A stretch of 64,000 nucleotides of DNA from Paraburkholderia sabiae (GTDB taxonomy: Bacteria; Pseudomonadota; Gammaproteobacteria; Burkholderiales; Burkholderiaceae): assembly GCF_030412785.1 (NCBI RefSeq), contig NZ_CP125296.1:2245678-2309677 (forward strand). Reading direction: 5' to 3'. The notes beneath the pieces were generated by a model. That model was not told the DNA's origin and did no database searches. It saw only the letters and a program-made list of their open reading frames with translations. Within the stretch, counting starts at the first letter, position 1. Every line of letters starts with the position of its first letter. Below are positions 42,119-61,507 of this stretch, one piece after another. Position numbers and translations under genes: made by a program.

Positions 42119-43276
42119 TCACTGCACGAAGTCGATAGCGACGGGAGTCGGCATGTCCGCCGACTCTCCCGTATTGGACAGCTTGCCGGATGAGGAGTCG
42201 ATGGCGAATACATTGACTTTGCCGTTCTGCTGGTTGGCAACCAGCATCCACTTTCCCGAAGGACCGATGGCAAAACCCCACGGTTTTTCACCACCCGACG
42301 ATGTGCGTTGAATCAGCGAGAGCATGCCCGATTCGCCGTCCACACGATAAACAACCAGTTCATTCTCCGCGCGATTCTCGACATAAACGAAACGCCCATC
42401 GCGGCTCACTGCGATTTCGGCGCCGCTTTTCACGCCTTTGAATGATTCGCTGGTCACAGGCAATGTCTGCACGGGGCTTAACCGCCCTTTTGAAGCGTCC
42501 CAGCGCAGCACCATGATCTCCGCCGACAACTCCGTGAGCAGATAAACGAACTGGCCGCTCGATCCGAACGCGAGATGACGCGGCCCGCTGCCGGGTGGCA
42601 CGGCAAAGGCGTGCACGTTGTCATCGGCCGACAACGCATGCGTCGTCCGATCGAAGCCATACACGAACACGCGATCCGCGCCGAAGTCGGGAACGAGCAC
42701 GTATCGTCCCGAAGGATCGACCACGGCACTATGCGCATGCGCGCTCGCCTGCCGCCGGTTCGGTCCCGAACCTGTTTCCTTGACCGTCGATACGAGCGGG
42801 CCGAGACTGCCGTCCGGTTGAACCACGATGCTCGACACAGAACCGCTGCCGTAGTTCGCGGCGAGCAAGGTCGTCGCAGGCGTGTCCAGCAGAAGATTCG
42901 TCGTGCCCGTGCCGCCCGCCAGCACCGCATTCATTTTCGTCAGTGCGCCCGTCGCGCGATTCACTGCGTAGGCCGTGACGCTTCCTTCGCGCGAATTGTC
43001 GTCGTCGACGGCGTAGAGAACGGGTAGTTGAGGATGCGACGTCACCCACGTCGATCGCGTGCCGCTGGCGACGACACCGATTGTGTCGAGCTTGCCCGTC
43101 GATGTATCGAGGCGCAGCGCATGAATCCGGCTATCTTGCGTACCGACATACACGAGGTCGGTTTGCGCGCCTGTCGCTTGCGTTGCGATGCTCTTGCACC
43201 CGCTCATCAACACGACGAAGAAGAGTGCGAAACCATAACGCGTCAGCCTGTCTCTCTGGAGGGACCGAATCATCAC
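42119..43276 (-). CDS. Lactonase-family (6-phosphogluconolactonase-like) seven-bladed propeller lipoprotein
   Basis: A 385-residue protein. A lipoprotein signal ends in LMSGC near residue 27. The body repeats blades such as GPRHLAFGSSGQFVYLLTELSAEIMVLRWD and GRFVYVENRAENELVVYRVD, the cytoplasmic YbhE-type lactonase fold, here exported and lipid-anchored. Relatives hydrolyse sugar lactones or muconolactone-like rings, or only scaffold. Copy 1 of the five-copy 37-base element lies just upstream, tying it to the aromatic operon at 56-49 kb. The start could be either of two adjacent Met codons. Confidence 0.8.
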   Translation of the reverse strand: MMIRSLQRDRLTRYGFALFFVVLMSGCKSIATQATGAQTDLVYVGTQDSRIHALRLDTSTGKLDTIGVVASGTRSTWVTSHPQLPVLYAVDDDNSREGSVTAYAVNRATGALTKMNAVLAGGTGTTNLLLDTPATTLLAANYGSGSVSSIVVQPDGSLGPLVSTVKETGSGPNRRQASAHAHSAVVDPSGRYVLVPDFGADRVFVYGFDRTTHALSADDNVHAFAVPPGSGPRHLAFGSSGQFVYLLTELSAEIMVLRWDASKGRLSPVQTLPVTSESFKGVKSGAEIAVSRDGRFVYVENRAENELVVYRVDGESGMLSLIQRTSSGGEKPWGFAIGPSGKWMLVANQQNGKVNVFAIDSSSGKLSNTGESADMPTPVAIDFVQ

Positions 43277-43326
43277 CGGTTAGCTTCGAGAAGAAATTGG
43301 CCAAGCGTACTGGATCCGGATGTGGA

Positions 43327-43362
43327 CGTCCCTGCACAAAACGCGGATTCGCTTGTATTTTT
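43327..43362 (-). promoter_or_regulatory. 37-base regulon element, copy 1
   Basis: Plus-strand CGTCCCTGCACAAAA followed by GGATTCGCTTG and a T-run. It is the most divergent copy in its second half. Placed about 50 bases upstream of the minus-strand lactonase-like gene and right after the AraC stop. Confidence 0.6.
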
Positions 43363-43395
43363 ATATCCGCTGCGATCCGTTGTGTCCAAGCGCGC

Positions 43396-44313
43396 TTATT
43401 GCCTTGCCGCCGCGCGGAACTGACTCGGCGCTTGACCCACTTCCCTGCGGAAAAAGCGCGTGAAATAGGCGGCATCGGCGAAGCCCAATCCAAATGCGAT
43501 CTGCTCCACCGACATATTGCCGAAGATGAGATCACGCTTCGCCTCGGTGATGATGCGCGCATGAATCATCTTGGTCGGGCTCTGCTCCGTGGCGGACGCA
43601 CACGCGGCCCGCAGTTGCACGAGAGACACCGCCATCATCGATGCATAGTCCTGCAACGGCAGATTCTCGCGGTAGTGCTGGTCGATCAGTTTGCGGAACC
43701 GGTCGACGAGGCGGATATCGTTGCGCGTCGCGCTTTCGCTGCCCGTCTGATCCAGGCTCGCCTCACGCAGCAGCATGAGCAGAAGCGTGGTCAGCAATGC
43801 TTCCGTGCCGACTACGTGACCGACCGAGTCGGACTCGACTTCCTGCTTGAGACGTTGAATCAGGCTGTAAAACGCCACTCCTGTATCGGTGGAATCCGCA
43901 AGCGGGATCATGCGAGGCGCCGCCCACAGCCCGATGAATTCGTGAAGTTTGGCGTTGATCTGGGTCAGATAGGCGACTTCGATCGTCACGACCCAGCGGT
44001 CGGCGTCGACTTCGTAATCGAGACCATGCACGCATTCGGTCGGCAACAGCAACGCGCAAGGCCCTTCGAACGGCACGCTGCTGCCTTCCAGATTCATGAC
44101 GCCGCGTCCGCTACGAACGTAGATCACCTGGCCATAAGCGGGATGCGCGTGAGGTTCCGTCCGCCAGCGGCCCCGGTCCGTGACATGCCCGACGTGTACC
44201 AGCCAGTTCTTCTCCTCCGGGCGCTCGACGTACAAACGGACCTTCGGAACGGTCGCATGCTTCTCCTTGCCGTTCCACTTGGGTTGAACCTTCGTCATGG
44301 CACTGTACGTCAT
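43396..44313 (-). CDS. AraC family regulator (PobR/HpaA-like)
   Basis: A 305-residue protein. The N-terminal cupin (EPHAHPAYGQVIYVRSGRGVMNLEGSSVPFEGPCALLLPTECVHGL) and C-terminal AraC helix-turn-helix pair (about 215-300, ending FADAAYFTRFFRREVGQAPSQFR) resemble activators of aromatic hydroxylase genes such as PobR and HpaA. AGAGAG precedes the ATG. It lies amid copies of the 37-base element and an aromatic catabolic operon, so it is my best candidate for the protein that binds that element. Not proven. Confidence 0.87.
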   Translation of the reverse strand: MTYSAMTKVQPKWNGKEKHATVPKVRLYVERPEEKNWLVHVGHVTDRGRWRTEPHAHPAYGQVIYVRSGRGVMNLEGSSVPFEGPCALLLPTECVHGLDYEVDADRWVVTIEVAYLTQINAKLHEFIGLWAAPRMIPLADSTDTGVAFYSLIQRLKQEVESDSVGHVVGTEALLTTLLLMLLREASLDQTGSESATRNDIRLVDRFRKLIDQHYRENLPLQDYASMMAVSLVQLRAACASATEQSPTKMIHARIITEAKRDLIFGNMSVEQIAFGLGFADAAYFTRFFRREVGQAPSQFRAAARQ

Positions 44314-44573
44314 AAAGTCTCTCTGACGGCCGAGCCGGACGGGTATCGGCCATCTTTATCATGTCAGCATGACGGGGCCAAACGGCACAAACGGCATTGC
44401 CCTGCTGATTCACCGTCTCCAGGTTTGTCCACGAACGCTGCGATGCGAACCTCTGCTTCGCACTCGAATGCCACTGCATCGCGTGCACGGATACACGCGA
44501 CATATTCCCACACCGATGCAGGAGAATGCGACCTGCGATTTACCCGAACTGCCGCGGCGCGCTGCTTCACGCA

Positions 44574-45599
44574 TCAGAACGTATGCACGATGCCGAGCGT
44601 AATGCCGCGCGTATTGGCGCCCGGCGCGACCGTCACGCCTATATACGCGGTGCCGTTCAGCGTGAAGTGCGCCTGATTGCGGTTCTGGATGAAGCCGGCC
44701 GACGCGTACAGCGTCGTCACTTTCGAAAGATAGTGTTCGTAAGAAAGACCGATCTGCTGCGCATTGTTTCCCTGACCCGTTCGATCGTGCGCATAGCCGT
44801 ACAGCACGGCGACCTGATCCGCAGGGCCGAACAGATACGAACCCGATGCTTCGTAGACGTCGCGCTTCACGCTGTCGTCGGTCTGACGTTCCGTGTGATA
44901 CGCGAGAAAGAAGCGCGCCGCACCGACCTTCACGGATGCGCCCGCATTGAATATCTTCAGGATCGACGTGCCCGCCGCGTTCGCGGCCTGCTCGTAGCCT
45001 GCGGCCAGATGAAACGGACCGTTCACATAGCGGACAGCCGCGTTGTAGAACTGCAGGCCGTTGCTCGGCTTCGTCGTCGAATCGCGCATCGCGACCATGA
45101 ACTGCGCAGTCAGCCCGTAGACGGTCGGCGTGAAGTACGAGATCGCGTTGTTGACGCGCACCGTGAGGCTGTTGAAGTTGTTCATCGGCGACGCGATGCT
45201 CATCACCGCGAGCGGATCGAGTTCGGGGTTCATGAAGATGTATTGCGGCGTGTTCTGAAGCCCGAAACGCATTTCGCCGAAACCGCCCGACATGCCGACC
45301 CACGCCTGCCGGTTGAACGCAGCGGCGGAATTCGACGCCGCGCCAGTGATGCTCGAAAAGCCCTGCTCCAGTTGAAAATTCACATGCAGGCCGCCGCCGA
45401 TATCTTCGCTTCCCTTGAAGCCATACCGGCTTGCGAACAATCCGCCCGATACCGCGCGCGTCACCGCCGCCGTGCCCGGGTTCTGATATTCGAGTCCATT
45501 GTCGATCACGCCATACAGCGTGACGGACGATTGAGCGTGAGCAACGTCTACTGCGCATACGCACGCGACGCCGGATAGCAGAACAATGAGCTTCTTCAT
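44574..45599 (-). CDS. Gram-negative porin, 341 residues (paralogue of 56241 porin)
   Basis: The start at 45599 follows CGGAGAC; the frame upstream is non-coding leader. The signal (MKKLIVLLSGVACVCAVDVAHA) leads into QSSVTLYGVIDNGLEY, the porin_4 N terminus. Blocks such as GFKGSEDIGGGLHVNFQLEQGFS and the final residue Phe fit a 16-strand outer-membrane channel. It is the same length as, and close in sequence to, the porin at 56241; both have a 37-base element about 185 bases upstream of the start codon. It probably admits the aromatic acid used by the nearby operon. Confidence 0.92.
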   Translation of the reverse strand: MKKLIVLLSGVACVCAVDVAHAQSSVTLYGVIDNGLEYQNPGTAAVTRAVSGGLFASRYGFKGSEDIGGGLHVNFQLEQGFSSITGAASNSAAAFNRQAWVGMSGGFGEMRFGLQNTPQYIFMNPELDPLAVMSIASPMNNFNSLTVRVNNAISYFTPTVYGLTAQFMVAMRDSTTKPSNGLQFYNAAVRYVNGPFHLAAGYEQAANAAGTSILKIFNAGASVKVGAARFFLAYHTERQTDDSVKRDVYEASGSYLFGPADQVAVLYGYAHDRTGQGNNAQQIGLSYEHYLSKVTTLYASAGFIQNRNQAHFTLNGTAYIGVTVAPGANTRGITLGIVHTF

Positions 45600-45781
45600 T
45601 TTGTCTCCGTACAGCTTCTGGTTTTTAGATCCGGTCCGCACGCAGACGCAAAGGCCGATGCGTGTCGTCCGTTGATTCATTTCGTAGAGCTGATTTCGGC
45701 GCATGCGCCACGCGATGGCGGAGCCGCCTGGCGAGCTGCGGTTGCGCGCGTGAAGGCAAGAATAGGTTCGCTTCGGCTGCG

Positions 45782-45818
45782 CGTCCCTACACAAAAGTCA
45801 GATTCGCTGGGATTTTTT
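45782..45818 (-). promoter_or_regulatory. 37-base regulon element, copy 2
   Basis: CGTCCCTACACAAAA, then GTCAGATTCGCTGGGA and a run of seven T. It lies upstream of the minus-strand porin, in the same orientation to the gene as the other copies. Confidence 0.7.
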
Positions 45819-45858
45819 TCGATCGATGAATCGCTTTTGAACGACGGGCATCACGCCG

Positions 45859-45898
45859 CACAAAAGTGCCAGCGAATCTGATTTTTGTGTAAAGGCAG
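45859..45898 (+). promoter_or_regulatory. 37-base regulon element, copy 3 (inverted)
   Basis: CACAAAA (45859-45865), 17 bases, TTTTGTG (45883-45889), then TAAAGGCAG. The middle, GCCAGCGAATCTG, matches copy 2 on the other strand. It is about 70 bases upstream of the plus-strand outer-membrane gene and has the most complete palindromic arms. Confidence 0.7.
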
Positions 45899-45964
45899 AC
45901 GTCGACGCATCCAATAGGATTTCTTCACCGCGGGGTTGATAACAAATCCATTTCGGACGGAGAC

Positions 45965-46942
45965 ATGAAAAACATATCGGTAGCTTTGCGCGCCTCGCTT
46001 GCTGGCGCGGCGATCTTCTGTTGCCTGAGCAAACCCGGCTACGCGGAGGTCTACACCGCGCCCGCGGCCTCGCCGCCATCGCCAGCACAGCAGACGACAC
46101 CGTCGAATGCCGTCGCGCCGCTCACCGCACCCAGTCTGAAATCAGGCGAAGAACCCGGCGAGCCGCCCGTGTCGTGGAACGATACGTATATCGGCTACCG
46201 CTACGGCAACGACTTCCACTATCCGGGCATGCATGACAAGGTCGTGCAGAACATCGGCTACCTCACGACCACAGGCGGCTTCCGCTTCGGCAGTTATGCG
46301 TTCAATGTCGATTACCTCGTCTCCAACGCGGCGAACCCGGAAGCAGGCGGCCCGTCGACGGGAGGAGCACAGGAGGTGTACAGCGTCGGCCGCGTCGAGT
46401 TGAGCGCCGGCAAGATCCTCGGGCGGCCGGTCGGCTTCGGCATCGTTCGCGATGTGGGTTTCACGAGCGGCTTCGAGTTCGGCTCGAAGAACGACGCCTA
46501 TGCGGAGCGCGCGCGGATGCTCGTATTCGGTCCGACGATCGAATTCGCACTGCCGCGAGGATTCCTGAATCTGACCGCGGGCCTTCGAACGGAAAGCAAC
46601 CATAACGGCATTACAGGCGTCGACGTGCATTTCAACACCGCGTGGCATATCGAAAGCTCGTGGCTCTTTCCGTTCCGTGCCGGTCCGGTGCCGCTCATTT
46701 TCCGTGGATTCGCGAGCGTGACGGGGCCAAAGGGCAAAGACGGTTTCGGCGTCGAGACGCAAACGGAATTCCTCACGCGCGTTTCGCTGCTCGCCGATCT
46801 CGGTTCATTCGCGGGACATCCTCGCGCCGTGTATGCGGGCGTCGGCTACGAGTATTGGCATCACATGTATGGCTCACCGACCAGCGAAACAGTCGGCACG
46901 ATCACTTCCGCGCCGATGCTCATGGCCGAAATCCATTTCTGA
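45965..46942 (+). CDS. Outer-membrane beta-barrel protein (Tsx-like / outer envelope channel)
   Basis: A 325-residue protein with a Sec signal (MKNISVALRASLAGAAIFCCLSKPGYA), a Pro/Ala-rich linker to about residue 60 and alternating amphipathic strands ending in Phe (SAPMLMAEIHF), the outer-membrane assembly signal. WNDTYIGYRYGNDFHYPGM at the barrel start resembles nucleoside-channel Tsx-like outer-envelope proteins. GGACGGAG precedes the ATG. Copy 3 of the 37-base element is its likely promoter, so it may serve uptake of the same substrate as the porins. Confidence 0.75.
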   Translation: MKNISVALRASLAGAAIFCCLSKPGYAEVYTAPAASPPSPAQQTTPSNAVAPLTAPSLKSGEEPGEPPVSWNDTYIGYRYGNDFHYPGMHDKVVQNIGYLTTTGGFRFGSYAFNVDYLVSNAANPEAGGPSTGGAQEVYSVGRVELSAGKILGRPVGFGIVRDVGFTSGFEFGSKNDAYAERARMLVFGPTIEFALPRGFLNLTAGLRTESNHNGITGVDVHFNTAWHIESSWLFPFRAGPVPLIFRGFASVTGPKGKDGFGVETQTEFLTRVSLLADLGSFAGHPRAVYAGVGYEYWHHMYGSPTSETVGTITSAPMLMAEIHF

Positions 46943-47231
46943 TTTCACACCGTTGCAGACACGACGAAAGGCGGCCAGCAAGATGGGTCGCCATTCGTCG
47001 TTTGAGCGTTCGGCGCGCCGCAGAATAGTCCTCGAAACAAGGGGCGGATGTCTCCGCTCCCGCATCAATCGTCTGACCATTCGAAGCGCGGCAAACGCCG
47101 CGCTTTGTCCATCCGGGGTCATAAGAAGAACTGGGCGCGATATGGCGAATTTCGATCCCATGCGCCACTCAATTTCTCCCGCATTCCGCCGATAAACCTT
47201 GCAGAGCCCGAACTATCCCACCCGGAACACA

Positions 47232-48767
47232 ATGAGACTTTCTACCCGACTGATTGTCCTGGTCACCACCGCGCTATTGGGGATAGCGTGCGTCGTCGCC
47301 CTGTCGCTGCACGAACTCAACGATGCGCTGATCGCGAACCGTCAGGCCGAAGCCGTCAATCTGCTCACCAAGGCCGAGCACATGGTGCAGTCGTACCGCG
47401 AGCTGGAAGCGAGCGGCAAGATGACACGCGACGAAGCCCAGGCCGCCGCGAAACGCACGCTGGACGCGCTCAACGCCGACAAGAAGAGCTACTACTGGGT
47501 GATGAACCCGAACGGCCTGATGCTCGTGCATCCCGTTGCCGAACTCGTCGGCAGGCGCATGGTCGGCAAAGGCGCATTGCCGGGCGAAACAGACCTGGAC
47601 GCCTACGCGCGCGGTTTGTCGGCGAATCACTATGCGCTCGTCGACGTACTGATCCAGCGCTCGCCGAACGGCCCGTACGAAGCGAAATTGCAGGGTATCG
47701 TCGCGGTTCCCGAGTGGAACTGGTGGATCGGGACGGGCTTCTTCTACGACAACATCGAGGCCGCGTTCTGGCGCGCCGCCACGCGCCTGATCGCGATTTC
47801 GGCGGCGATTCTCGTTGCCGTGTGCCTGATGGCCTGGTACATGACGAAGAGCATTCGCAAGACGCTCGGCGGCGAGCCGGCGGACGCAGCGGCCTTCGCC
47901 GCGCAGATCGCGTCGGGCAATCTCGCGGCCGACATCAAGCTCGCCACGACGGACCGGCATAGCCTGATGTACGCGCTGCACGAGATGAAGCTGAAGCTCC
48001 GCGAACTCGTGCACGACATCCAGCAGACCAGCGAATCCATCGCGACCGGCTCGAGCGAAATCTCGCAAGGCAACACGGACCTGTCGCAACGCACCGAGGA
48101 ACAGGCGGCATCGCTGCAGGAAACGGCCGCCAGCATGGAGCAACTGACGACGACCGTGCAGCACAACGCCGACAATGCGCGTCAGGCGAGCCAGCTTGCA
48201 TTGCAGGCGTCGGCGGCGAGCAGGAGCGGCGGCGACGCCGTCGATCAGGTCGTCGGCACGATGCAGGGCATCGTCGAGCAGTCGCACAAGATCGGCGACA
48301 TCATCGGCGTGATCGAAGGCATTGCATTCCAGACGAACATTCTCGCGTTGAACGCAGCCGTGGAAGCGGCGCGTGCAGGCGAAGAAGGCCGCGGCTTCGC
48401 CGTCGTCGCGAGCGAAGTGCGCTCGCTCGCGCAACGCAGCGCGTCCGCTGCCAAGGACATCAAGGGGCTGATCGAAACGTCGGTTGCGCGCGTCGATCAA
48501 GGCACGAGTCAGGTCGCCGACGCGGGCGAACGGATGCGCGAGATCCTGCAATCGATCGCGCGCGTGAGCGACATCATGGGCGAAATCGCGGCGGCATCGA
48601 CGGAACAAAGCACGGGCATCGAGCAGGTGAACCGCGCCGTCTCGCAGATGGACGAAGTGACCCAGCAGAACGCGGCGCTTGTCGAACAGGCCGCCGCTGC
48701 GGCAGGTTCACTCGACGATCAGGCCGCGCGTCTGCGTGCTTCCGTTTCGCAGTTCAGACTGAGCTGA
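47232..48767 (+). CDS. Methyl-accepting chemotaxis protein (single-Cache sensor)
   Basis: A 511-residue chemoreceptor. Helix 1 is at about 5-28; the periplasmic sCache_2-type sensor covers about 30-175 ([39 protein letters not shown]); helix 2 is near 185-205, followed by a HAMP segment. The signalling hairpin includes [39 protein letters not shown]. The sensor type usually detects small carboxylates. No CheR pentapeptide at the C terminus. It may steer the cell to a solute used by nearby operons, but that is inference. The 289 bases upstream hold no gene and no regulon element. Confidence 0.92.
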
Positions 48768-48790
48768 TCGTTCGATTTCCGCTGAACGTG

Positions 48791-48828
48791 AAAAGGGCGC
48801 TGTGTCCAGACGCAGCGCCCTTTTTCTT
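48791..48828 (+). terminator. Strong Rho-independent terminator of the chemoreceptor gene
   Basis: AAAAGGGCGCTG (48791-48802) pairs with CAGCGCCCTTTT (48813-48824); a 10-base loop and a T-rich tail follow. Because the stem begins with an A-run, it can also terminate the minus-strand operon arriving from the right. Confidence 0.88.
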
Positions 48829-48851
48829 TCCATCTCAAGCGTAAAGCGGCA

Positions 48852-50765
48852 TCAGGGATTGGGTATGTACATCGGCATCGCTTCTTCCCACAGCGTATCC
48901 GTGATGGCGTGCTGATCGGTACCGTCGGCGTTCATCACCCAGTTCTGACCGTCGGGCTGGAAGCTGTTGTCGTACAGCGCGAGTTCGTCGCGGAAACCAT
49001 ACGTGCCCGAGCTATACGCGATGCGGCCGTCCCACGTCCACACGGCATGCCCCTGATTCGAGCCGTCGTCGGTCAGACGGCTCAGGCCCGTGCCGTCCGG
49101 CTTGATCGTGAACACGTCATAGTTGAATTTGTTCGGATCGCCCGGGTTGATCTGCTTGCGCGTGAAGACGATCTTCGTGCCATCCGGCGACCAGCCCGGC
49201 AGATTGTCCGTTTCCGTGGTCAGGACCGTCGTGGTGTGCGTATCGAGATCGAGAATGCGCAGTCCCTGCACCTTCTGGCTCCACACGCGATACACGATCT
49301 TCTTCCCATCCGGCGAATAGCTCGGAAAACCCGCATTGATCGAACCATCCGTGAGAAATTCCGGATGGCCGTCCATGCTGCCGTCCGACTTGATCCGCGC
49401 GATACGGCCCGGACCAGCGCCGCGCGTGAAGAACCAGTCGCCCACGCCGAACGCGACCCATTGCCGGTCCGGCGACCACGTCGGCTGAAACGCGCCCGCG
49501 AGCCCCTTCTTCACCATGTCGGGATCGAGTCCGCTCGTCGACGGATCGTAGATGCGCGTGTAGCCGGAGAAGTCGGGGTTGATGATCGCGATCGACGAAT
49601 TGATCGCCTTTTCCGTGTACACCAGCTTCTTGCGATCCGCCGAGAGTTGCGGGAACACATCGATGTACCGGTAATTCCACGCGCGATCGAAACTGTAGAG
49701 CGGCGCGCCGTTCGCGCGGGCCGGGCGGAACGTCACTTTCTCGTAGATCATCTTGCTGCCGTCCGCCGAATAGCGCGGCGAGCGTATGCCCGTATTGGCC
49801 GTCGAACGGAACGTGCCTGCCGTCGTATAGATGCCTTCCGTGTCGCCGCCCTTGACGTGATACGCGATGTTCGTCGCGTTCAGATATTGCGGGAACACCT
49901 TGAAACCGGGCGTCGACGTCAGAGCCGAACGCGCGAGGCTCGCGACGTCCACGGAAACCAGTTGCGAGCTGACGGAGTTGATTCCTTCGGGACGGTGCAC
50001 GCCCCACGTCGACTCGACGGGCGTTTCGTAGAAGACGACGTGCTTGCCATCCGGCGACCACGACGGCGAGCCTTCGTCGAAACCAGCATTGCTCGCGATC
50101 TTCTTCCACCCCGAACCATCGGGCCGGATCAGATAGATGCTGCTTTCCTGCGTACGCTCCCAGCCGACGGGCAGATTATGGCCGCGCCAGTCCGAACCGA
50201 TATCGGACGACAGCGCGAGCCACTTGCCATCCGGCGACCACGACGGCCGGAAGTAGCTATGCGGTTTGCTCGCGTCGAACGGGATCGCGCCCGTGACGTT
50301 CTTCAGCGCGCCCGTCGCGATGTTCAGCGTCCACACGTTGGTCGTGCCGAAGCCGGCGTCGCCCTTGCGCGACGACACGAAGGCAATGACGTTCGGATCG
50401 GTGGGCGAAATGACAGCGGCATCGTCGACGGCAATGTGATCCGTGAGCCGCTGCAGCCCCGAGCCGTCGATCTTCACGCGATACAGGTTCGACTCGCCGA
50501 GTCCGTCGCGTTCCGACGTGAACACGACCCACTGGCCGTCCTTTGAAAACGACGCGTGATAGTCGAAGCCATCGGATGCAATCAGGCGATGCTCGCCCGT
50601 ACCGTCCGCATTCGCGACATACAACTCGGACGTCACGGGTCCAATGCGATTGAGCAGCAGATCCCCGTTCTGCGCTGCAGCCGCTGCGGCTGGAATCACG
50701 ATGCAGATTGCGATTGCAGCACTGCCTGCCAGCCGCCTGTTCTTTAAACGCCAGGTCGAATACAC
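48852..50765 (-). CDS. TolB-like beta-propeller exported protein, last gene of the aromatic operon
   Basis: The frame stays open for 1.3 kb upstream, antisense to other genes. GGAG ten bases before a GTG at 50765 gives a 637-residue protein beginning with a signal-like helix (LAGSAAIAICIVIPAAAAAAQNG). The body repeats PD40/TolB blades: FSKDGQWVVFTSERDG, WSPDGKWLALSSDIG, WSPDGKHVVFYE, YSPDGKKIVYRVWS, WSPDGTKIVFTRKQ. Probably periplasmic. It lies 44 bases after the decarboxylase-like gene; a propeller at the end of a meta-cleavage operon is unusual and its role is unknown. Confidence 0.8.
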   Translation of the reverse strand: MYSTWRLKNRRLAGSAAIAICIVIPAAAAAAQNGDLLLNRIGPVTSELYVANADGTGEHRLIASDGFDYHASFSKDGQWVVFTSERDGLGESNLYRVKIDGSGLQRLTDHIAVDDAAVISPTDPNVIAFVSSRKGDAGFGTTNVWTLNIATGALKNVTGAIPFDASKPHSYFRPSWSPDGKWLALSSDIGSDWRGHNLPVGWERTQESSIYLIRPDGSGWKKIASNAGFDEGSPSWSPDGKHVVFYETPVESTWGVHRPEGINSVSSQLVSVDVASLARSALTSTPGFKVFPQYLNATNIAYHVKGGDTEGIYTTAGTFRSTANTGIRSPRYSADGSKMIYEKVTFRPARANGAPLYSFDRAWNYRYIDVFPQLSADRKKLVYTEKAINSSIAIINPDFSGYTRIYDPSTSGLDPDMVKKGLAGAFQPTWSPDRQWVAFGVGDWFFTRGAGPGRIARIKSDGSMDGHPEFLTDGSINAGFPSYSPDGKKIVYRVWSQKVQGLRILDLDTHTTTVLTTETDNLPGWSPDGTKIVFTRKQINPGDPNKFNYDVFTIKPDGTGLSRLTDDGSNQGHAVWTWDGRIAYSSGTYGFRDELALYDNSFQPDGQNWVMNADGTDQHAITDTLWEEAMPMYIPNP

Positions 50766-50809
50766 AGCGAAATGTCTCCAGTTGATTGTGTTTTTAAAGA
50801 GCGGTCGCC

Positions 50810-51706
50810 TTAGCCCAGGCTGCCCGTCACGTCGTCGAACAGTTCGTCGACGCTCAGCCGGTGCGGAATGATCTTCTGATCGAGCGCCCAGTCGATCGCC
50901 AGCTGAATGCCCTTGCGGTTCGCTTCGAGTCCGATGGGCGGAAACACGGCAGGCACGCCGCCTTCCGTCAGCGCGCGGCTTTCGACGATCATCCGGTACA
51001 GCTCGCGCACGATCTCGGGATGTTTCTTCGGCAGATCTTCGTGCACGACGAACATGTGATTGATGGGCACCACCCCTTCGCGCGCGAACCAGTCTTTCGC
51101 GGCGGCCTTCGCATCGGGCACGAGCGTGCGCACGCGTTCGTCCTTCGGCATGTCTTCGCCGAGCAGCGCCGCGCTCAGTTCGCCGTCGAGCATCATCTGC
51201 GGAATCGACGATCCTGCTGGCAGGCGCACGCAGTTGTTCGGATCGCGATACTCGGCGAGATGCCCGTCGCCGAGCGTCATCCACGTGACCTTGTCGAGAT
51301 CGACGCCGTATTCGTGGCGCAGAATGCCGCGAATCCAGAGCGCCGTCGTCTGCGTGTAGGTGCACACGCCGACCGGCTTGCCTTCGATATCTTTCGGATC
51401 GAGATGACCGAAGTCGATGTTGAAGCCCGCGCAGTGATGCTGGAAGCGGCCCGAGATCGGTGTCGGCAACAGCACGTAGGGCTTGCCGTACGCCTTCGCC
51501 TGCAGGAACGTGACGATCGCCAGTTCGCCCGCGTCGAATTTGCTCTCGCGCACCATCGCCTTGAAGCCGTTGTGCGCGGGCGTGGGTCCGCAAAAGTCGA
51601 GATCGACGATATCCGAGGCGACGCGCCCTTCCTTCAGCGCTTTCGTCACGGGATACGTCGCCAGGTTGGTGCGCAGCGTCGGCACTTCGGTGAGCGTCGT
51701 TGTCAT
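50810..51706 (-). CDS. 4,5-dihydroxyphthalate-decarboxylase-like protein (second copy)
   Basis: A 298-residue protein of the Pht5-like family, with a periplasmic-binding-protein type 2 fold (GFKAMVRESKFDAGELAIVTFLQAKAYGKPYVLLP; DIEGKPVGVCTYTQTTALWIRGILRHEYGVDL; LPAGSSIPQMMLDGELSAALLGE). No signal peptide, so a cytoplasmic enzyme is more likely than a binding protein. Known members remove a carboxyl group from 4,5-dihydroxyphthalate to give protocatechuate. It lies three bases after the aldolase gene. A second member of the family heads the same operon. Confidence 0.83.
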   Translation of the reverse strand: MTTTLTEVPTLRTNLATYPVTKALKEGRVASDIVDLDFCGPTPAHNGFKAMVRESKFDAGELAIVTFLQAKAYGKPYVLLPTPISGRFQHHCAGFNIDFGHLDPKDIEGKPVGVCTYTQTTALWIRGILRHEYGVDLDKVTWMTLGDGHLAEYRDPNNCVRLPAGSSIPQMMLDGELSAALLGEDMPKDERVRTLVPDAKAAAKDWFAREGVVPINHMFVVHEDLPKKHPEIVRELYRMIVESRALTEGGVPAVFPPIGLEANRKGIQLAIDWALDQKIIPHRLSVDELFDDVTGSLG

Positions 51707-51709
51707 GGT

Positions 51710-52567
51710 TCAGTACCCCGCCATTTCGCGCGCCGCGCCGACGACGCCATAGCTCTTCACGGGCGCCGACATCAGGAAGCGATAACCTTCTTCGAGCAAC
51801 CGCTTGTGATTCTTTGCGTTGACATGCGGATTGCCGACCACGACGTTGTGCTTGCGACAGGTCTCGACGATCTGCCGCATCGCGTCGGCCACGACGGGAT
51901 GTTCGTAATCGCGCGGATAGCCGAGTTGCTGGCTGAGATCGCCTTCGCCGATCAGAATGAAGCCGATGCCTGGCACGTTCGAAAGAATATCGTCGAGGTT
52001 CTCGATCGCTTCCGTGCTCTCGCACATCAGGCCGACGAGAATTTCGCCGTGCGGCGCGAGCGGCCACACGTCGGCTTTCCTGTAGTACTCATCGGTGCTC
52101 AAGCCCCAGTAGCGCGCAGCATTCGCGGGACCATCGCCGCGCACGCCTTTCGGCTCGTACAACGGCGCGTGTTTAGGGCGTGCATAGCGGCACGATGCGA
52201 CCGCGTTATACGCCTGCTCGACGGTCGAGATATGCGGCCACACCACGCCATACACGCCGCGATCGAGCACCTGCTTCGCGAACGCCTGATTCATTTCCGC
52301 GCCATTCGCGGGAATGCGGGCGATCGGCGTCACGCGCGCCGCCACCGAAGCGGACTCCGCGATCGCCTTGCGGTTGAGCATGTACTGCAACGCATCGCCG
52401 AGCGCCGACACGTCGTACGGGTTGTGCTCCATCTCGAAGACGATGCCGTCGTATGGCGCGTCGCTCATCTCGATGGCCGACTGCTTGTCCAGCTTGGAGA
52501 ACGCGGCAAACGTGGGCTTGCCGGATTCGAAAGCGCGAATGATGCTGTTCAGGCGCGTGTCGCTCAT
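51710..52567 (-). CDS. HpcH/HpaI family aldolase
   Basis: A 285-residue class II aldolase. Metal and substrate residues fit the family: FEMEHNPYD near residue 45, GLMCESTEAIENL with the metal Glu near 180, and GEGDLSQQLG with the metal Asp near 208. Family enzymes split 4-hydroxy-2-oxo acids such as 4-hydroxy-2-oxoheptanedioate to pyruvate and an aldehyde or keto acid. Downstream of a LigB-type ring-cleavage gene it should do the last carbon-carbon cleavage of the pathway. It is longer than HpaI (about 260). Confidence 0.87.
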   Translation of the reverse strand: MSDTRLNSIIRAFESGKPTFAAFSKLDKQSAIEMSDAPYDGIVFEMEHNPYDVSALGDALQYMLNRKAIAESASVAARVTPIARIPANGAEMNQAFAKQVLDRGVYGVVWPHISTVEQAYNAVASCRYARPKHAPLYEPKGVRGDGPANAARYWGLSTDEYYRKADVWPLAPHGEILVGLMCESTEAIENLDDILSNVPGIGFILIGEGDLSQQLGYPRDYEHPVVADAMRQIVETCRKHNVVVGNPHVNAKNHKRLLEEGYRFLMSAPVKSYGVVGAAREMAGY

Positions 52568-52607
52568 GATCGTTGCTCTCTCGTGAATGAAATCGCGGCG
52601 GCGAAAA

Positions 52608-53594
52608 TCAGTCGGCGGCTTGCCAGTACATGAAGCCCATGCCTTCGCCCGTGCCTGCCGGCGTGCGCCAGCACGGCACGTAATCGACCAGCGTCATCTC
52701 GGCGCCCGTTTCCTGCACGGCCTTCATCACACTCACGTAGAGCTTGATCTCCGACGTGCCCGACTGATACGAGCGGTCATCCACGGCAGCGAGACCGTCG
52801 TAGTCGTACTCGCCCAGCATCTTCATGATGCGATGATCGAACTCCTCGTCGTTGACGAAGTGCGACAGGCCGCCCGACGCGAAGATGCCCACGCGCACGT
52901 CCTCGGGCCACGCGGTGATCGCATCGCGCAGCACGCGGCCGAACTCGATGCAGCGCGACATCGACGGCTGCGTCGGCGGATAGAAGCAGTTCATGATGAC
53001 GGGCACATGCGGCGGCGGATCGTCGCTCATGATCTGGTGATAGACGAAGCTGTACGCATGCGGCACGACGGGATACTCGGGCAGCGGCTTCATCCACACG
53101 TTGTCGGGCCACGCGAACAGATCCGTCAGATCGAAGCCTTCGTTCTGAAAATGCTGGATCAGATACGTCGCGAGCTGCGGATGACACTTGTGCGTGACAT
53201 GGCGGTCGGGCGCATAAACGGGACGCTGCGGCGGACCGTTGTGCACGTCCTCCCCGCTGTAAATGGCGATCGACGGCGAGAAGTCGGTGAAGATTTCCTT
53301 CTGGTCCTTGCCCAGAATGATTGCGACATCGATGTTCGCGTCGCGATACGCAGCCGCCATTTTGTCGAGCGCGGCGCGGCAGCGCGCGGCACGCGCGGTG
53401 CGCTCTTCCAGCGTCAGGTATTTCTCGAACGCTGCTTCGCGATGCGCTTCCAGTTCGGGATACGTCCACGTCCGATTGCGATACCACAGTTCCGGATTGT
53501 TGCGGTCGCGCTCGCCGTTCTTGAGCCAGTCTTCCGGTGCCTGGCCGAGCATGCCGCTATGCGGCACTGCCATCCCGAATACGATCTTCGCCAT
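52608..53594 (-). CDS. LigB-type class III extradiol ring-cleavage dioxygenase
   Basis: A 328-residue protein with the LigB fold. AVPHSGML supplies the first iron His near residue 11, ILGKDQKEIF the nearby acidic/Asp segment, and FASGGLSHF the catalytic His near 250. These non-haem iron enzymes cleave catecholic rings such as protocatechuate, gallate or related dihydroxy-acids at the meta position. No separate LigA-like small-subunit gene is next to it. Together with the decarboxylase-like and aldolase genes it suggests ring opening and cleavage to central intermediates; the exact ring is unknown. Confidence 0.85.
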   Translation of the reverse strand: MAKIVFGMAVPHSGMLGQAPEDWLKNGERDRNNPELWYRNRTWTYPELEAHREAAFEKYLTLEERTARAARCRAALDKMAAAYRDANIDVAIILGKDQKEIFTDFSPSIAIYSGEDVHNGPPQRPVYAPDRHVTHKCHPQLATYLIQHFQNEGFDLTDLFAWPDNVWMKPLPEYPVVPHAYSFVYHQIMSDDPPPHVPVIMNCFYPPTQPSMSRCIEFGRVLRDAITAWPEDVRVGIFASGGLSHFVNDEEFDHRIMKMLGEYDYDGLAAVDDRSYQSGTSEIKLYVSVMKAVQETGAEMTLVDYVPCWRTPAGTGEGMGFMYWQAAD

Positions 53595-53673
53595 GTAGTG
53601 TTTCTCAGTGAATTAACGTGTTTCGCAAGGCCGGATGCGCCGGCCATGGTGTGGTGTCCAGCGATGTGCGGGC

Positions 53674-54960
53674 TCAGGCCTCGCGCAGCGAACCGTGCGC
53701 TTCCGTGACTTTGGGCGCCCATTCGGGCCGGTACAGAATCAGCGTGGCCGTTGCGCCGACCAGCAGAAAGCCGAGAATCACCATCATCGGCAGGTCGTAA
53801 CTTCCGCTCACGTGCAGCAGCCAGCCGGAGAGACTCGCGGCCACGCCGCCCGCGAGACTCGTCGCCACCTGCTGCACGCCCGTCACGAGGCCGATGGCCT
53901 GCTTCGGAATCAGCGTGAGACGCGACAGCACCAGGTTGTTCGCCGTGACGAAACCGAGCAGCGACAGCGACAGCACGTTCCAGAACAGCGCCATCTCGAC
54001 GGATTGCGCATACGCGCCGAGCAGCACCGTGCATCCGCCGACGAAGCCCGTCACCGTGAACGCCTTGCGCACGCGGATCGGATCGTGTCCTCGCGCGATG
54101 ACGCGGTCGGCGGCCCATCCCGCCACGGCCGCGACGATCGCGATGCCTGCGAAGCTGAAGAAGGTGAACAGCCCGGAGCGCGAAATCGACAGGTTGCGTT
54201 GCTCGACCAGATACGCGGGCATCCACGTCATGCAGAAGAACGTGAAGTAGCCGTAGCAGAAGTTGGTCACCATGCCGCCCCACACCACCGGGCTCGACAG
54301 GATGCTGGCGAGACTCACCGAGCGCGCGCTGCGGTTCTTCAGCGCGAATTCGGCCTTCGAAGGAAGATCGTTGCGCACCAGCAGCAGCCACGGCGCGAGC
54401 CAGAGCAGCCCGACCAGACCCGTCGCGATGAACATCACCTGCCACGAATAGTTGACGATGAACCAGGCCGCGACGGGCGCGCCGAGCGCGGGACCGAACT
54501 TGTTGCCCATCGCCAGGATGCCGACGGCCAGCCCGTTCTGGCTTTCATCGAAGTGGTTGCGGATCCAGCGATAGCTCGCCGGGATCACGATCGCTTCCGC
54601 CATGCCGACGACCAGCCGCATCACGACGAGGCCCGCGAGCGTCGTCACGGCGCCCATCAGTGCCGTCGCGATACACCACAGCGCGAAGCTGACGGCATAC
54701 GGCCACTTCACGCCGTAGCGGTCGGCGACCCAGCCCATCGGCACCTGGAACAGACCATACGACCAGAAGAAGGCCGAGTTGATCCAGCCGCGATCGATAT
54801 CCGTCAGCGCAAAGTGACGGACGAAGCCCGTGTCGGCCAGCGTCGAAGAAATGCTGGTGCGGTCGATAAACGACACCAGCACGCCGATCGCGAGGAGCGC
54901 GAGTATCGCCCAGCGGCTCACGGTGCCCGGTTGCCCGGATTTGTCTGTCTCCATCTGCAT
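53674..54960 (-). CDS. MFS transporter, ACS type, of the aromatic operon
   Basis: A 428-residue carrier with twelve helices. It opens with WAILALLAIGVLVSFIDRTSISSTL and has GWVADRYGVKWPY, the loop 2-3 motif of the family. ACS carriers import organic anions including phthalate. It lies between the first decarboxylase-like gene (134 bases) and the LigB gene (79 bases), so it should import the operon's aromatic acid. Confidence 0.9.
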   Translation of the reverse strand: MQMETDKSGQPGTVSRWAILALLAIGVLVSFIDRTSISSTLADTGFVRHFALTDIDRGWINSAFFWSYGLFQVPMGWVADRYGVKWPYAVSFALWCIATALMGAVTTLAGLVVMRLVVGMAEAIVIPASYRWIRNHFDESQNGLAVGILAMGNKFGPALGAPVAAWFIVNYSWQVMFIATGLVGLLWLAPWLLLVRNDLPSKAEFALKNRSARSVSLASILSSPVVWGGMVTNFCYGYFTFFCMTWMPAYLVEQRNLSISRSGLFTFFSFAGIAIVAAVAGWAADRVIARGHDPIRVRKAFTVTGFVGGCTVLLGAYAQSVEMALFWNVLSLSLLGFVTANNLVLSRLTLIPKQAIGLVTGVQQVATSLAGGVAASLSGWLLHVSGSYDLPMMVILGFLLVGATATLILYRPEWAPKVTEAHGSLREA

Positions 54961-55094
54961 TGTCTTTTCCGTTTGTTTGATTCCGCGTGCTGCAACGTCA
55001 CGCCGTCCTGCCGACGATCCGTCCGCGCTCTTCGTCGCTCAAGCATGCCAGAGCCGCCTGAGCCGTCGCGAGAGTCTCGCCGGGTACGCCCCGG

Positions 55095-56081
55095 TCAGCG
55101 GGCCGGCGCGCCATTGGGGTCCACGAACAATTCGCCGATCGACATGCGGCGCGGCGTCAGCCCTTGCCTGAACGCGGTGGCTTCGAGCGTCTCGATCGTC
55201 TTGAGGTTTTCCTGAAGACCGTACGGCAGCGGATCGTGTCCGACGATCTTGCGCAACTCCAGATACTTCCTGTCGCTGGCGGCGGTCGCTTCGCCTGCAT
55301 CGAGGCGCGCGAGCCATTCCTTCTTCGCCTGCGCGAAAGCGTCGTAGATCGACTTCGCGATCCACGGATGCTCGGCCAGCACCGAATCCTTTACGACGAT
55401 CGTGCCGTGCATCGGATAGACGCCCGTGCGCCGGTAGTAATCGGCTTCCAGTTCGGCTGCGTTGGGCAGCAGGTCCGGATAGTCCGCCTCGACTTCTTTC
55501 CAGCCGCCCGTCGGCGCGCCCGTGCGGCCGATGCCCGCCGCCGCAGCGAAGCCCGCCGACAACTCGCCCTTCTCCATCATTTCCGCCAGCGAGCTGCCCG
55601 CCGGTGCGTGAATCACGTTCGGCGGCAGCTTGAGCTGCGTCACGTGTTCTTCGTCATCGACCACCCACGTCACCTTCGACGAATCGAGGCCGAATTCGTC
55701 GATCAACACCTGGCGCGTCCACACGCCTGTCGTCACCGAGTACGCGCGCACGCCGACCTTCTTGCCTTCGAGATCCTTCGGCGTCGCAATGCCCGCGTCC
55801 GGGCGCACCAGCAATCCGCCGTGATGGAAACGCCGCACCACGAAAACCGGCAATCCGACGAAGGGCGCGCCATAGGCACGCGCGATGATGTAAGTCGTCG
55901 GCGCCAGTTCGCACACGTCGAACTCGACATCGCGCACCATGCGGCGGAACGCGCCGATTTGCGGCTGGACGGTGATGAACTCGGCGTCCACGCCTTCGAT
56001 GGGAATGGAACCGTTGCGGATCGCCGACGTATGCGGATGCTCGGCGATTGCAATCTTGAGCGGGACTTTCCTGGTCAACAT
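55095..56081 (-). CDS. 4,5-dihydroxyphthalate-decarboxylase-like protein (first copy)
   Basis: A 328-residue protein. CAAGGAGAGG just before the ATG at 56081 fixes the start over one 11 codons upstream. LKIAIAEHPHTSAIRNGSIPIEGVDAEFI, FRRMVRDVEFDVCELAPTTYIIARAYGAPFVGLPVF and VIHAPAGSSLAEMMEKGELSAG match the Pht5-like family, the same as the protein at 50810. No signal peptide. It heads the operon that runs to 48852, and copy 4 of the 37-base element is its likely promoter. One of the two homologues may instead act on a different acid. Confidence 0.83.
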   Translation of the reverse strand: MLTRKVPLKIAIAEHPHTSAIRNGSIPIEGVDAEFITVQPQIGAFRRMVRDVEFDVCELAPTTYIIARAYGAPFVGLPVFVVRRFHHGGLLVRPDAGIATPKDLEGKKVGVRAYSVTTGVWTRQVLIDEFGLDSSKVTWVVDDEEHVTQLKLPPNVIHAPAGSSLAEMMEKGELSAGFAAAAGIGRTGAPTGGWKEVEADYPDLLPNAAELEADYYRRTGVYPMHGTIVVKDSVLAEHPWIAKSIYDAFAQAKKEWLARLDAGEATAASDRKYLELRKIVGHDPLPYGLQENLKTIETLEATAFRQGLTPRRMSIGELFVDPNGAPAR

Positions 56082-56187
56082 CCTCTCCTTGGGGTAGGTC
56101 GTCGCCGGCGGCACGATCCGAGGATCGGCGGATCAGCGCCTGGCGTAGCGTCTCGATGGGTTCAGAATATTGGACGGGCGCGCTCGT

Positions 56188-56224
56188 GTCCCTACACAAA
56201 ACGCAGATTCAATGGCACTTTTGT
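56188..56224 (-). promoter_or_regulatory. 37-base regulon element, copy 4
   Basis: GTCCCTACACAAAA, then CGCAGATTCAATGGCA and CTTTTGT. It lies between the porin stop and the first decarboxylase-like gene, about 107 bases before that start codon. Confidence 0.7.
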
Positions 56225-56240
56225 CGACGGGCTCGCAGCG

Positions 56241-57266
56241 TCAGAACCGGTGCACCATGCCGACGATCACGCCCTTCACGTTGGCGCCCGGCGTCACGTC
56301 GATACCCGAATACTCGGTGCCGTTCAGCGTGAATTGCGCCTGGTTGCGGTTCTGGATAAAGCCCGCCGACGTGTACAGCGTGGTCGACTTGGACAGGAAG
56401 TAGGCGTACGTCAAGCCGACCTGCTGCGCGTTGTTCCCCTGGCCGGTGCGGTCGTGCGCGTAGCCGTACATCAGCGAGAGCCGGTCGAACGGGCTGAACG
56501 AGTACGAACCCGATAGCGAGTAGATGTCGAGCTTCTCGCTGTTGTCGGACTCGCGCTCCGACTGGTACGCGAGATAGACGCGCGCGGACTTCGTGCCGTA
56601 CGACGCGACGGCTCGCAGCACGCGTTGCAGTGCGGTGCCCGACGCGTTGCCCTGCTGCTCGTAACCCGCGGCAACACGGAAGTGCCCGCTTACCCAGCGC
56701 GCGACGGCGTTGTAGAACTGGATGCCGTTCGTCGGTTTGGTCGTGTCGTCGCGCATCGCAACCGAGAACTGCGCGGTCAGGCCGTAGGCTTCCGGCGTGA
56801 AGTACGTGATCGCGTTGCTCGCGCGCACCGTGACGTCGTTGAAATTGTTCAGCGGCGACGCGATGCTTTGCACGCCGACGGCATCCATTTCGCGATTGAG
56901 ATACAGATACTCGGGCTTCTTCTGCCGTCCGAAGCGCAACTCGCCGAAGTCGCCGGACAATCCGACCCACGCGAGGCGATTGAAGGCGTCGGCGGGATTC
57001 GATGCCTGGCCGTTCACCGCGGAAAAGCCTTGCTCCAGCTGGAAATTGACGTGAAGACCGCCGCCGATGTCTTCTTCGCCCTTCATCCCATACACCGTTG
57101 CGGCGAGTCCGCCGGATGATGCGCGAACGACTGCGCCCGCGCCGCCGTCCTGATATTCGATGCCGTTGTCGATGACGCCGTAGAGCGTGACGGACGATTG
57201 CGCGTGAGCCGTGCCGAGCGCGCATGCCGATATAACGGCAGATGCAAAGATGGCGAGTTTTTTCAT
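56241..57266 (-). CDS. Gram-negative porin, 341 residues (paralogue of 44574 porin)
   Basis: CGGAGACA before the ATG at 57266 fixes the start. The signal (MKKLAIFASAVISACALGTAHA) leads to QSSVTLYGVIDNGIEY. Much of the chain matches the porin at 44574 (for example EDIGGGLHVNFQLEQGFS, IASPLNNFN, YGLTAQFSVAMRD), with identical length and a terminal Phe. It carries copy 5 of the 37-base element about 188 bases before the start codon, and copy 4 lies just after its stop. Expected role: outer-membrane entry of the aromatic acid. Confidence 0.92.
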   Translation of the reverse strand: MKKLAIFASAVISACALGTAHAQSSVTLYGVIDNGIEYQDGGAGAVVRASSGGLAATVYGMKGEEDIGGGLHVNFQLEQGFSAVNGQASNPADAFNRLAWVGLSGDFGELRFGRQKKPEYLYLNREMDAVGVQSIASPLNNFNDVTVRASNAITYFTPEAYGLTAQFSVAMRDDTTKPTNGIQFYNAVARWVSGHFRVAAGYEQQGNASGTALQRVLRAVASYGTKSARVYLAYQSERESDNSEKLDIYSLSGSYSFSPFDRLSLMYGYAHDRTGQGNNAQQVGLTYAYFLSKSTTLYTSAGFIQNRNQAQFTLNGTEYSGIDVTPGANVKGVIVGMVHRF

Positions 57267-57721
57267 TGTCTCCGGATCGATATGTAATGGTTGATGCTCG
57301 TCGGGTTGGCTCGACGAGTCGGCGTGCGAACTACGGGTTGCGAATTGCACGCACACACGCGCGCTGGCGCGGCGATGAGAACTGCGCGACGGACGGCAGA
57401 AAGCGAAGATGGAAGCGAAGCGCGAGAGGAACGATAGGCGAGGAAGGCGCGCGCGTCCCTAGATAAAAGTGATGTTCAGTGGGACTTTTGTGAGGTGAGT
57501 CGAAGCGCATGAAGCGCGTCGAACCGCGTCGCCGCCGCGCGTCGTACTATTGAACGCGGCATCGCGAACACTGCACCGGACACGCGAAGCGACATTTGCA
57601 TCTGCTGGCTCGCGCCGGAAGCCTCGGCTGCACTCCACGCGTTTGTCGAAGAGATGAAGGCGTCAGGCTTCGTTGCCGACGCGCTGGCGTAAACGCTATT
57701 CCGCCCAGGCTACACCGCCCA
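57267..57721. other. 455-base intergenic region between porin and GST gene
   Basis: No convincing gene. It contains the long porin leader and regulon element copy 5 at 57454-57492. The remaining 230 bases up to the GST stop show no hairpin with a T-tract. Confidence 0.6.
57454..57492 (-). promoter_or_regulatory. 37-base regulon element, copy 5
   Basis: CGTCCCTAGATAAAA, then GTGATGTTCAGTGGGA and CTTTTGTG. The half-site GATAAAA departs from CACAAAA, making it a weaker copy. It lies upstream of the 341-residue porin. Confidence 0.62.
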
Positions 57722-58345: not shown

Positions 58346-58493
58346 GACGGAGAGAAGTGAGGTCGATGCGCGAGTCTAGGCTTCGTCGAATCTTCCGTTC
58401 AAGGTACAGTTCGGTGAATCCGCGCCGTTGCAGTTGCGTGCAGTTGCATCCTGGCGGCGACGGACCCGTCAAGCCCCCAAGGATTCCGGCAGC

Positions 58494-59387: not shown

Positions 59388-59393
59388 CGAGGA

Positions 59394-59410
59394 CATCGCG
59401 ATTCGCGATG
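59394..59410. terminator. Short hairpin after the LysR gene
   Basis: CATCGCG-ATT-CGCGATG has perfect 7-base arms, followed by CCCCC and TTT. Weak as a terminator, but it lies just after the stop codon. Confidence 0.4.
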
Positions 59411-59481
59411 CCCCCTTTGCCAATCGAGCACTTCATTGCCGCCGTCGTCGCCGTCTAGATTTCCGTTGAAGGAGAAATCAG

Positions 59482-61440: not shown

Positions 61441-61507
61441 AGCATCGGTCGACAGGCCGCTTCACGAAGTTGTTGAACATTCAAAACTACGAGATTTGGA
61501 GACAGAC

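Follow-up and report, generated by a model that had tools for sequence, protein, structure and literature searches.

The DNA analysed here, referred to as the window, is a stretch of 64,000 nucleotides from Paraburkholderia sabiae (NZ_CP125296.1, positions 2,245,678 to 2,309,677), lying at the end of contig C2 of a genome of four contigs and 9.9 Mb. It contains a short repeated element in front of five transcription units that are predicted to serve the uptake and catabolism of an aromatic compound. On the minus strand lie the genes for a 7-bladed beta-propeller lactonase-family protein (42119–43276; PF10282, 331.5 bits), an AraC-family regulator (43396–44313; HTH_18 and a weak AraC_binding domain) and a first porin (44574–45704; PF13609 in the open reading frame 44574–45794, with a predicted start near 45704). 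They are followed on the plus strand by a gene (45965–46942) whose product the sequence-only reading had called an outer-membrane barrel; it gave 0 Pfam matches at E ≤ 1, lies next to the element in relatives too, and is termed the outer-membrane protein below. Downstream of it is a chemoreceptor gene (47238–48767, plus strand, putative start; MCP, sCache_2). The remaining genes are again on the minus strand. A catabolic operon begins with a homolog of 4,5-dihydroxyphthalate decarboxylase (55095–56114; PDB 9jp7, E = 9.3e-46) and continues with an MFS transporter (53674–54960; PF07690), a LigB-type extradiol ring-cleavage dioxygenase (52608–53594; PF02900), an HpcH/HpaI aldolase (51710–52567; PF03328) and a second protein related to the product of the first gene (50810–51706; the families cross-match at ∼32–34% identity in a second cluster). 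A TolB-like beta-propeller protein (48852–50750; PD40 in the open reading frame 48852–52067, 5′ limit inferred) is either an operon member or its own unit, and in some relatives its gene has its own element. The second porin (56241–57266; PF13609) has a predicted ATG at 57266.

Five copies of the element are present where the sequence-only reading had placed them, each facing the gene that it had named (lactonase, porin 1, outer-membrane protein, first operon gene and porin 2) and all in the same orientation relative to that gene. As first described, four copies read on the plus strand, at 43327, 45782, 56187/56188 and 57454, and an inverted copy occupies 45857–45897. The common element is asymmetric and 35–36 bp long; its shared block is GTCCCTACACAAAA-NNN-AGATTCGCTGGCACTTTT in the orientation first described and AAAAGTGCCAGYGAATCT-NNN-TTTTGTGTAGGGAC towards the gene. 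In gene orientation, the consensus of the 30-bp predicted regulator site is AAAAGTGCCAGYGAATCT-NNN-TTTTGTGTA, which abuts a weak −35 hexamer, RRGACG. With a matrix trained on relatives, the copies gave scores far above chance: 47.9 (position 43328), 58.7 (45783), 58.1 (45862), 58.4 (56188) and 38.8 (57455). Every other position in the 64-kb window scored below 4.

A sequence-only model of 36 positions was built from 98 sites in the relatives' named loci (98 of the 111 distinct sites, the L017 reverse match and 12 others being omitted by choice). Across the 9.9-Mb genome, the only matches of this model at E ≤ 1e-3 were the five copies in the window, and the next-best match was partial (E = 0.65). 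The most divergent copy is the porin-2 site (model E = 7.7e-4). The simple pattern CCCTACACAAAANNCAGATTC, allowing up to three mismatches, gave six matches in the same genome, four in the window and two elsewhere with three mismatches each; the copy at 57454 is too divergent to be found in this way, and the reversed control pattern gave 0 matches. When the pattern scan was extended to 299 genomes there were matches in 28, but the reversed control also matched in 5, and the sequence model was therefore preferred.

The predicted sites and the promoters that they adjoin can be placed as follows, with a 17-bp spacer between −35 and −10 in every case. On the minus strand, the lactonase site (43333–43362) adjoins a promoter at 43304–43332 (−35 GGGACG, 43332–43327; −10 TACGCT, 43309–43304), and the porin-1 site (45788–45817) adjoins one at 45759–45787 (−35 GGGACG, 45787–45782; −10 TATTCT, 45764–45759). 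The site of the outer-membrane protein, on the inverted copy and thus on the plus strand (45862–45891), is followed by a promoter at 45892–45920 (−35 AAGGCA, 45892–45897; −10 TAGGAT, 45915–45920). The operon site (56193–56222, minus strand) leads into a promoter at 56164–56192 (−35 GGGACA, 56192–56187; −10 TATTCT, 56169–56164), and the porin-2 site (57460–57489, minus strand) into one at 57431–57459 (−35 GGGACG, 57459–57454; −10 TATCGT, 57436–57431).

This arrangement is shared by the relatives. We aligned 129 sites towards the gene, these being the 130 matrix matches described below minus a spurious reverse face in L017. A second conserved block was seen outside the search matrix, with T54, A55 and T59 present in 98%, 98% and 99% of the sites. 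The combination TANNNT was found at offset 54 in 126 of the 129 sites and elsewhere in offsets 37–105 never in more than 6%. In alignment coordinates the −35 lies at 31–36 and the −10 at 54–59, a spacing of exactly 17 bp to which all five window copies conform. The spacers themselves differ in all 129 sites, and the presence of a −10 at a fixed distance in spite of this indicates that the element comprises an operator plus a promoter. The −35 hexamer is poor, most often GGGACG (48/129) and in other cases AAGGCA (12/129), with bases 3–5 being GAC, as in TTGACA, in 94 sites and GGC in 29. If transcription is assumed to start 7 bp beyond the −10, the 30-bp site spans about −66 to −37. It thus adjoins the −35, the placement expected of an AraC/XylS-type class-II activator promoter (about −70 to −35, adjoining or overlapping the −35, on the same assumed start). 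These alignments show the element as an upstream site joined directly to a weak promoter, and agree poorly with a terminator, a hairpin or a palindrome.

Two proposals of the sequence-only reading had to be replaced. It had suggested that TGTGTA at the gene-side edge might be the −10; the conserved −10 is instead TATTCT-like and lies 17 bp downstream of RRGACG. It had also proposed a palindromic dimer site with CACAAAA-N17-TTTTGTG arms, but of the five copies only that at 45859 matches both arms exactly, and the GTG of the right arm is not conserved among the relatives (matrix positions 36–38 carry 0.30, 0.27 and 0.06 bits). Some of the relatives' sites are nearly self-complementary, so that the reverse face also scores, as at L017:5425–5471. 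Within the otherwise free spacer, a TC is found at alignment positions 49–50 (78% and 75%), that is, at spacer positions 13–14; it ends three bases before the −10 and is present in four of the five window copies, being absent from that of porin 1.

To follow the element in relatives, the dioxygenase (52608–53594) was used as the query, and the best 80 of 100 confirmed loci were analysed. Record titles assign 22 of these to the Alphaproteobacteria; of the other 58, 57 are betaproteobacterial and one, L034, bears the title Pantoea. The matrix gave 130 matches, distributed over 53 of the 58 non-alphaproteobacterial loci and 0 of the 22 alphaproteobacterial loci. Of the five non-alphaproteobacterial loci with no element, four (L012, L027, L049 and L061) are short or cut beside the gene, and L059, in 16.9 kb analysed, has neither the element nor araC. 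Element-bearing loci are titled Paraburkholderia, Caballeronia, Cupriavidus, Burkholderia and several Oxalobacteraceae and Comamonadaceae. A homolog of a window gene lies within 600 bp downstream of 113 of the 130 sites, and is on the expected strand in 113/113 cases: the first operon gene (42), the lactonase (26), the outer-membrane protein (21), a porin (14), the MFS transporter (7) or the TolB-like protein (3). The other 17 have no mapped homolog within this distance (contig end or unmapped gene), one of them being the reverse face. The claim of a regulon linking 42–47 kb with 48.9–57.5 kb is thus upheld, with elements upstream and their orientation fixed. Copies mostly inside genes or in random orientation had been named as the result that would refute it; 0 of the relatives' 130 sites lie inside mapped homologs of window genes, to which this count is confined.

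We also looked at loci independent of the training set, namely six of the seven plasmid matches at least 75% identical to the dioxygenase (L187–L192; H3 was left out). These plasmids come from species related to those of the training set, so the independence is partial. Promoters of 60 bp were found in all six loci, and in five they stand immediately upstream of the first operon gene; L191 is the exception, its promoters preceding a DUF1302 gene and the lactonase instead. The lactonase is preceded by the cassette in L187, L188, L191 and L192 and weakly in L189 (28.2), and in the Acidovorax plasmid a cassette precedes a DUF1302 gene. Several scores are marginal (L187, 31.2; L190, 27.3; the L189 lactonase as given above), with a cut-off of 25 and block-shuffled windows reaching at most −14.6. 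In 369 genomes of the class, searched at E ≤ 1e-4 with stricter filters, only the window's own genome matched (4 of the 5 copies); among its listed entries the sample contained no other genome of the family, so that the limits this sample sets to the range of the motif are rough.

The AraC-family gene at 43396–44313 is likely to encode the regulator, being the strongest candidate by sequence comparison; the sequence-only reading had proposed none. Its product has a C-terminal AraC-type double helix-turn-helix (PF12833, 68.6 bits against a cut-off of 33.6; PF00165, 34.8 against 26.6) and a weak match to an N-terminal cupin-like ligand-binding domain (PF02311, 23.5 bits against 21.1). The best NCBIfam match is HpaA (TIGR02297), at 161.6 bits and so below the curated cut-off of 274.65 for an HpaA equivalog. 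In a set of 200 family genomes, the motif and an AraC ortholog (E ≤ 1e-60) occur in an identical set of 17 (Fisher P = 5e-25). The same 17 have the dioxygenase at 88% identity or more, and nine further genomes hold only relatives of it with 36–44% identity. The distance from araC to the nearest element is at most 150 bp in 13 of these genomes and at most 1.4 kb in all 17 (a second araC copy in G020 being left out of this count), and each motif-bearing genome has only 2–6 sites at E ≤ 1e-3. The second copy belongs to L185 (G020 C18), where two araC genes, 85% and 75% identical to that of the window, lie 3.6 kb apart on the same 20-kb stretch as four elements.

Thirty-one dioxygenase-bearing genomes from outside the family were also searched whole. 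All nine betaproteobacterial genomes have 2–5 sites each and an AraC protein of 66–77% identity. None of the 22 alphaproteobacterial genomes has a site; 13 have a distant AraC protein (27–37%) and nine have none at E ≤ 1e-20. Therefore, where the operon lacks this regulator, it also lacks the motif. Of 65 elements, 11 are on a different contig from araC, which carries little weight in draft assemblies. In the two-contig assembly G044, however, three elements are on the other large replicon, before genes for the outer-membrane protein, a TolB-like protein and a porin, and G065 has a weaker element (31.8) 77 bp before an open reading frame homologous to the window chemoreceptor. Elements on other replicons before the same gene families point to a regulator acting in trans.

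Taken together, we consider it highly probable, from comparison of sequences, that an AraC/XylS-type class-II activator with five site–promoter cassettes drives a regulon for aromatic uptake and catabolism. Motif, promoter geometry, target conservation and regulator co-occurrence are computed; we infer that the AraC-family protein binds the site and that it activates and does not repress, and likewise the inducer and the substrate. A ligand-bound dimer of the protein would occupy the 30-bp site ending at the −35 and recruit RNA polymerase to a weak sigma-70-like promoter, in the class-II manner of XylS. The two porins, the outer-membrane protein, the lactonase-family protein and the catabolic operon would then be induced jointly, and the operon (decarboxylase, MFS transporter, LigB dioxygenase and HpcH/HpaI aldolase) would handle an aromatic (poly)carboxylate. 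The chemoreceptor may join the regulon in some relatives.

Several observations weigh against this interpretation. AraC-type sites would be expected to hold two direct half-sites about 21 bp apart. In a direct-repeat test with pseudocounts, a lag of 21 was best (0.31), with a permutation P of 0.03 taken alone but a non-significant 0.39 over 16 lags, and an inverted match, consisting mostly of A4/T4, outscores this 21-bp direct repeat. Boxes of the XylS/CphR type, TGCA-N6-GGNTA, are absent as such from the alignment columns: TGCC is found at 6–9 and TGTA/TGCA at 27–30, with no GGNTA six bases on. As the motif, the AraC gene and the dioxygenase co-occur, the association within the family is not enough on its own to identify AraC as the regulator; the contrast with the alphaproteobacteria does identify it, but is provided by one distant group. 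Finally, araC is not in the analysed DNA of 11 of the 53 element-bearing loci, owing to the flank limit.

LysR regulators often control adjacent aromatic genes, and the element might instead serve as operator for the LysR-family protein encoded at 58428–59387, past the porin-2 copy, where its gene is the first of a LysR–aconitase–MFS unit. The gene is indeed enriched among motif genomes (6/17 compared with 21/183; Fisher P = 0.015). However, it occurs (E ≤ 1e-90) in 27 of the 200 family genomes, being missing from 11 of the 17 with the motif and present in 21 that have no motif; a LysR protein of more than 60% identity is found within the analysed DNA in only 5 of the 58 non-alphaproteobacterial loci; and in the window scan its own unit carries no element. 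The motif does not track the LysR gene across genomes, and we reject this candidate as extremely unlikely. A LysR/aconitase-family/MFS unit (window 58428–62950) also adjoins the cluster in L188 and L192, its distribution being largely independent. The conserved block could also be the promoter of an alternative sigma factor rather than the site of a transcription factor, and the rigid −35/−10 geometry and the unusual conserved TC in the spacer would suit this. Yet a sigma factor alone reads fewer conserved bases upstream of the −35 than the thirty found here, and the motif is limited to 2–6 sites in each genome that bears it, with araC near at least one of them in 17/17. We accordingly give this explanation little credence, even though other sigma factors are used at XylS/Pm, according to the excerpted text of the XylS paper (PMC5481539).

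With the same operator and promoter, the AraC-family protein or another regulator of the cluster might act as a repressor or have a dual role, for a repressor could also act at a site abutting the −35. The poor −35 sequences imply that the promoter should be weak with no activator, and the site position matches that of AraC-type activators such as CphR, as given in the excerpt of PMC6205950; we regard repression or a dual role as improbable. The last alternative, a mobile or structural repeat (REP-like or hairpin), was suggested by the two inverted copies about 44 bp apart at 45.8 kb and by the weak inverted symmetry of single copies. It is refuted by genome-wide count and orientation (five copies in 9.9 Mb, in fixed orientation, and no relatives' sites inside mapped homologs), and the unconserved right arm and the −10 at a fixed distance also speak against it; we attach practically no probability to it. 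A further possibility concerns origin: the ∼60-bp cassette may have been gained independently before scattered genes (porins, outer-membrane protein, lactonase, beta-propeller protein, chemoreceptor and enzymes, over replicons), with the spacer TC acting as a promoter determinant that is read through an unusual contact of the polymerase or of the activator. This seems to us a rather unlikely proposal.

The AraC-type activation that we favour has known counterparts. XylS, acting at Pm of the Pseudomonas putida TOL plasmid, is also an AraC-family activator of aromatic catabolism whose site meets the polymerase site, and it reads two 15-bp repeats with TGCA and GGTA boxes 6 bp apart (PMC5481539, excerpt). 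Unlike Pm, the window site has no conserved GGNTA, and five promoters share it, including those of porins and the outer-membrane protein. CphR, an AraC-type regulator for 4-chlorophenol in Rhodococcus sp. YH-5B, has sites at −35 to −49 and −55 to −69, nearly the same region as the about −66 to −37 seen here with an assumed start; it differs in having TGCA-N6-GGNTA repeats and one target promoter, and in belonging to an actinobacterium (PMC6205950, excerpt). The 4-hydroxyphenylacetate regulator HpaA is the best NCBIfam match of the AraC protein, yet the controlled genes are not, by family, 4-hydroxyphenylacetate genes.

For the enzymes, we take the protocatechuate 4,5-cleavage (lig) and phthalate (pht) pathways to be the closest. 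They have in common with the cluster a LigB-type dioxygenase and a first gene resembling 4,5-dihydroxyphthalate decarboxylase, as well as the 4-oxalomesaconate-hydratase-like and weak pyrone-dicarboxylate-hydrolase-like proteins of relatives; in contrast to the lig pathway, the window dioxygenase has only a distant relationship to the solved LigB structure (PDB 1b4u, E = 1.1e-5). The relatives' proteins are seen, for example, in L007, where a close homolog of 4-oxalomesaconate hydratase (PDB 2gwg, 500.6 bits) and a weaker homolog of pyrone-dicarboxylate hydrolase are both encoded between the first operon gene and the MFS gene, and a thiamine-diphosphate enzyme is found further on in the cluster of L008. 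Decarboxylase- and hydratase-like enzymes combined with a LigB dioxygenase and an aldolase suggest a pathway in which an aromatic (poly)carboxylate is decarboxylated, ring-cleaved and hydrated, and it is in kind only that the predicted substrate is assigned. Between the decarboxylase-like first gene and the MFS gene, L007 and L188 have two amidohydrolase genes that the window lacks (54960–55095). A second cluster in the same genome (L119; G000 C2:377–385 kb) has homologs of both, at 87% and 79% identity, together with homologs of the first operon gene, the aldolase, the thiamine-diphosphate enzyme, the second decarboxylase-like gene and the MFS transporter; this cluster has no element. Several public records name the LigB-type (PF02900) enzyme or its orthologs 'protocatechuate 3,4-dioxygenase', the name of an intradiol enzyme.

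The regulon and promoter type are real and well conserved; activation by AraC-type proteins is already known, and the sequence of the site is new as far as searched. It is absent among the AraC-family box patterns in the excerpts of the XylS and CphR papers (PMC5481539, PMC6205950). In the open-licence literature we found no paper on the gene combination of the cluster, none, judged by title, on such promoters when pieces of the motif were searched, and no identification of the substrate; a search combining AraC, regulon, porin and chemoreceptor turned up only a review on endophytes. Previously unlinked gene calls, one of them with no family match, become one predicted pathway module with a candidate regulator and promoters resolved to the base. 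On this basis the outer-membrane protein, the two porins and the lactonase-family protein can be expected, as a strong prior, to serve the aromatic substrate of the dioxygenase operon, and with that shared-substrate prior, substrate screens would be feasible with a single reporter.

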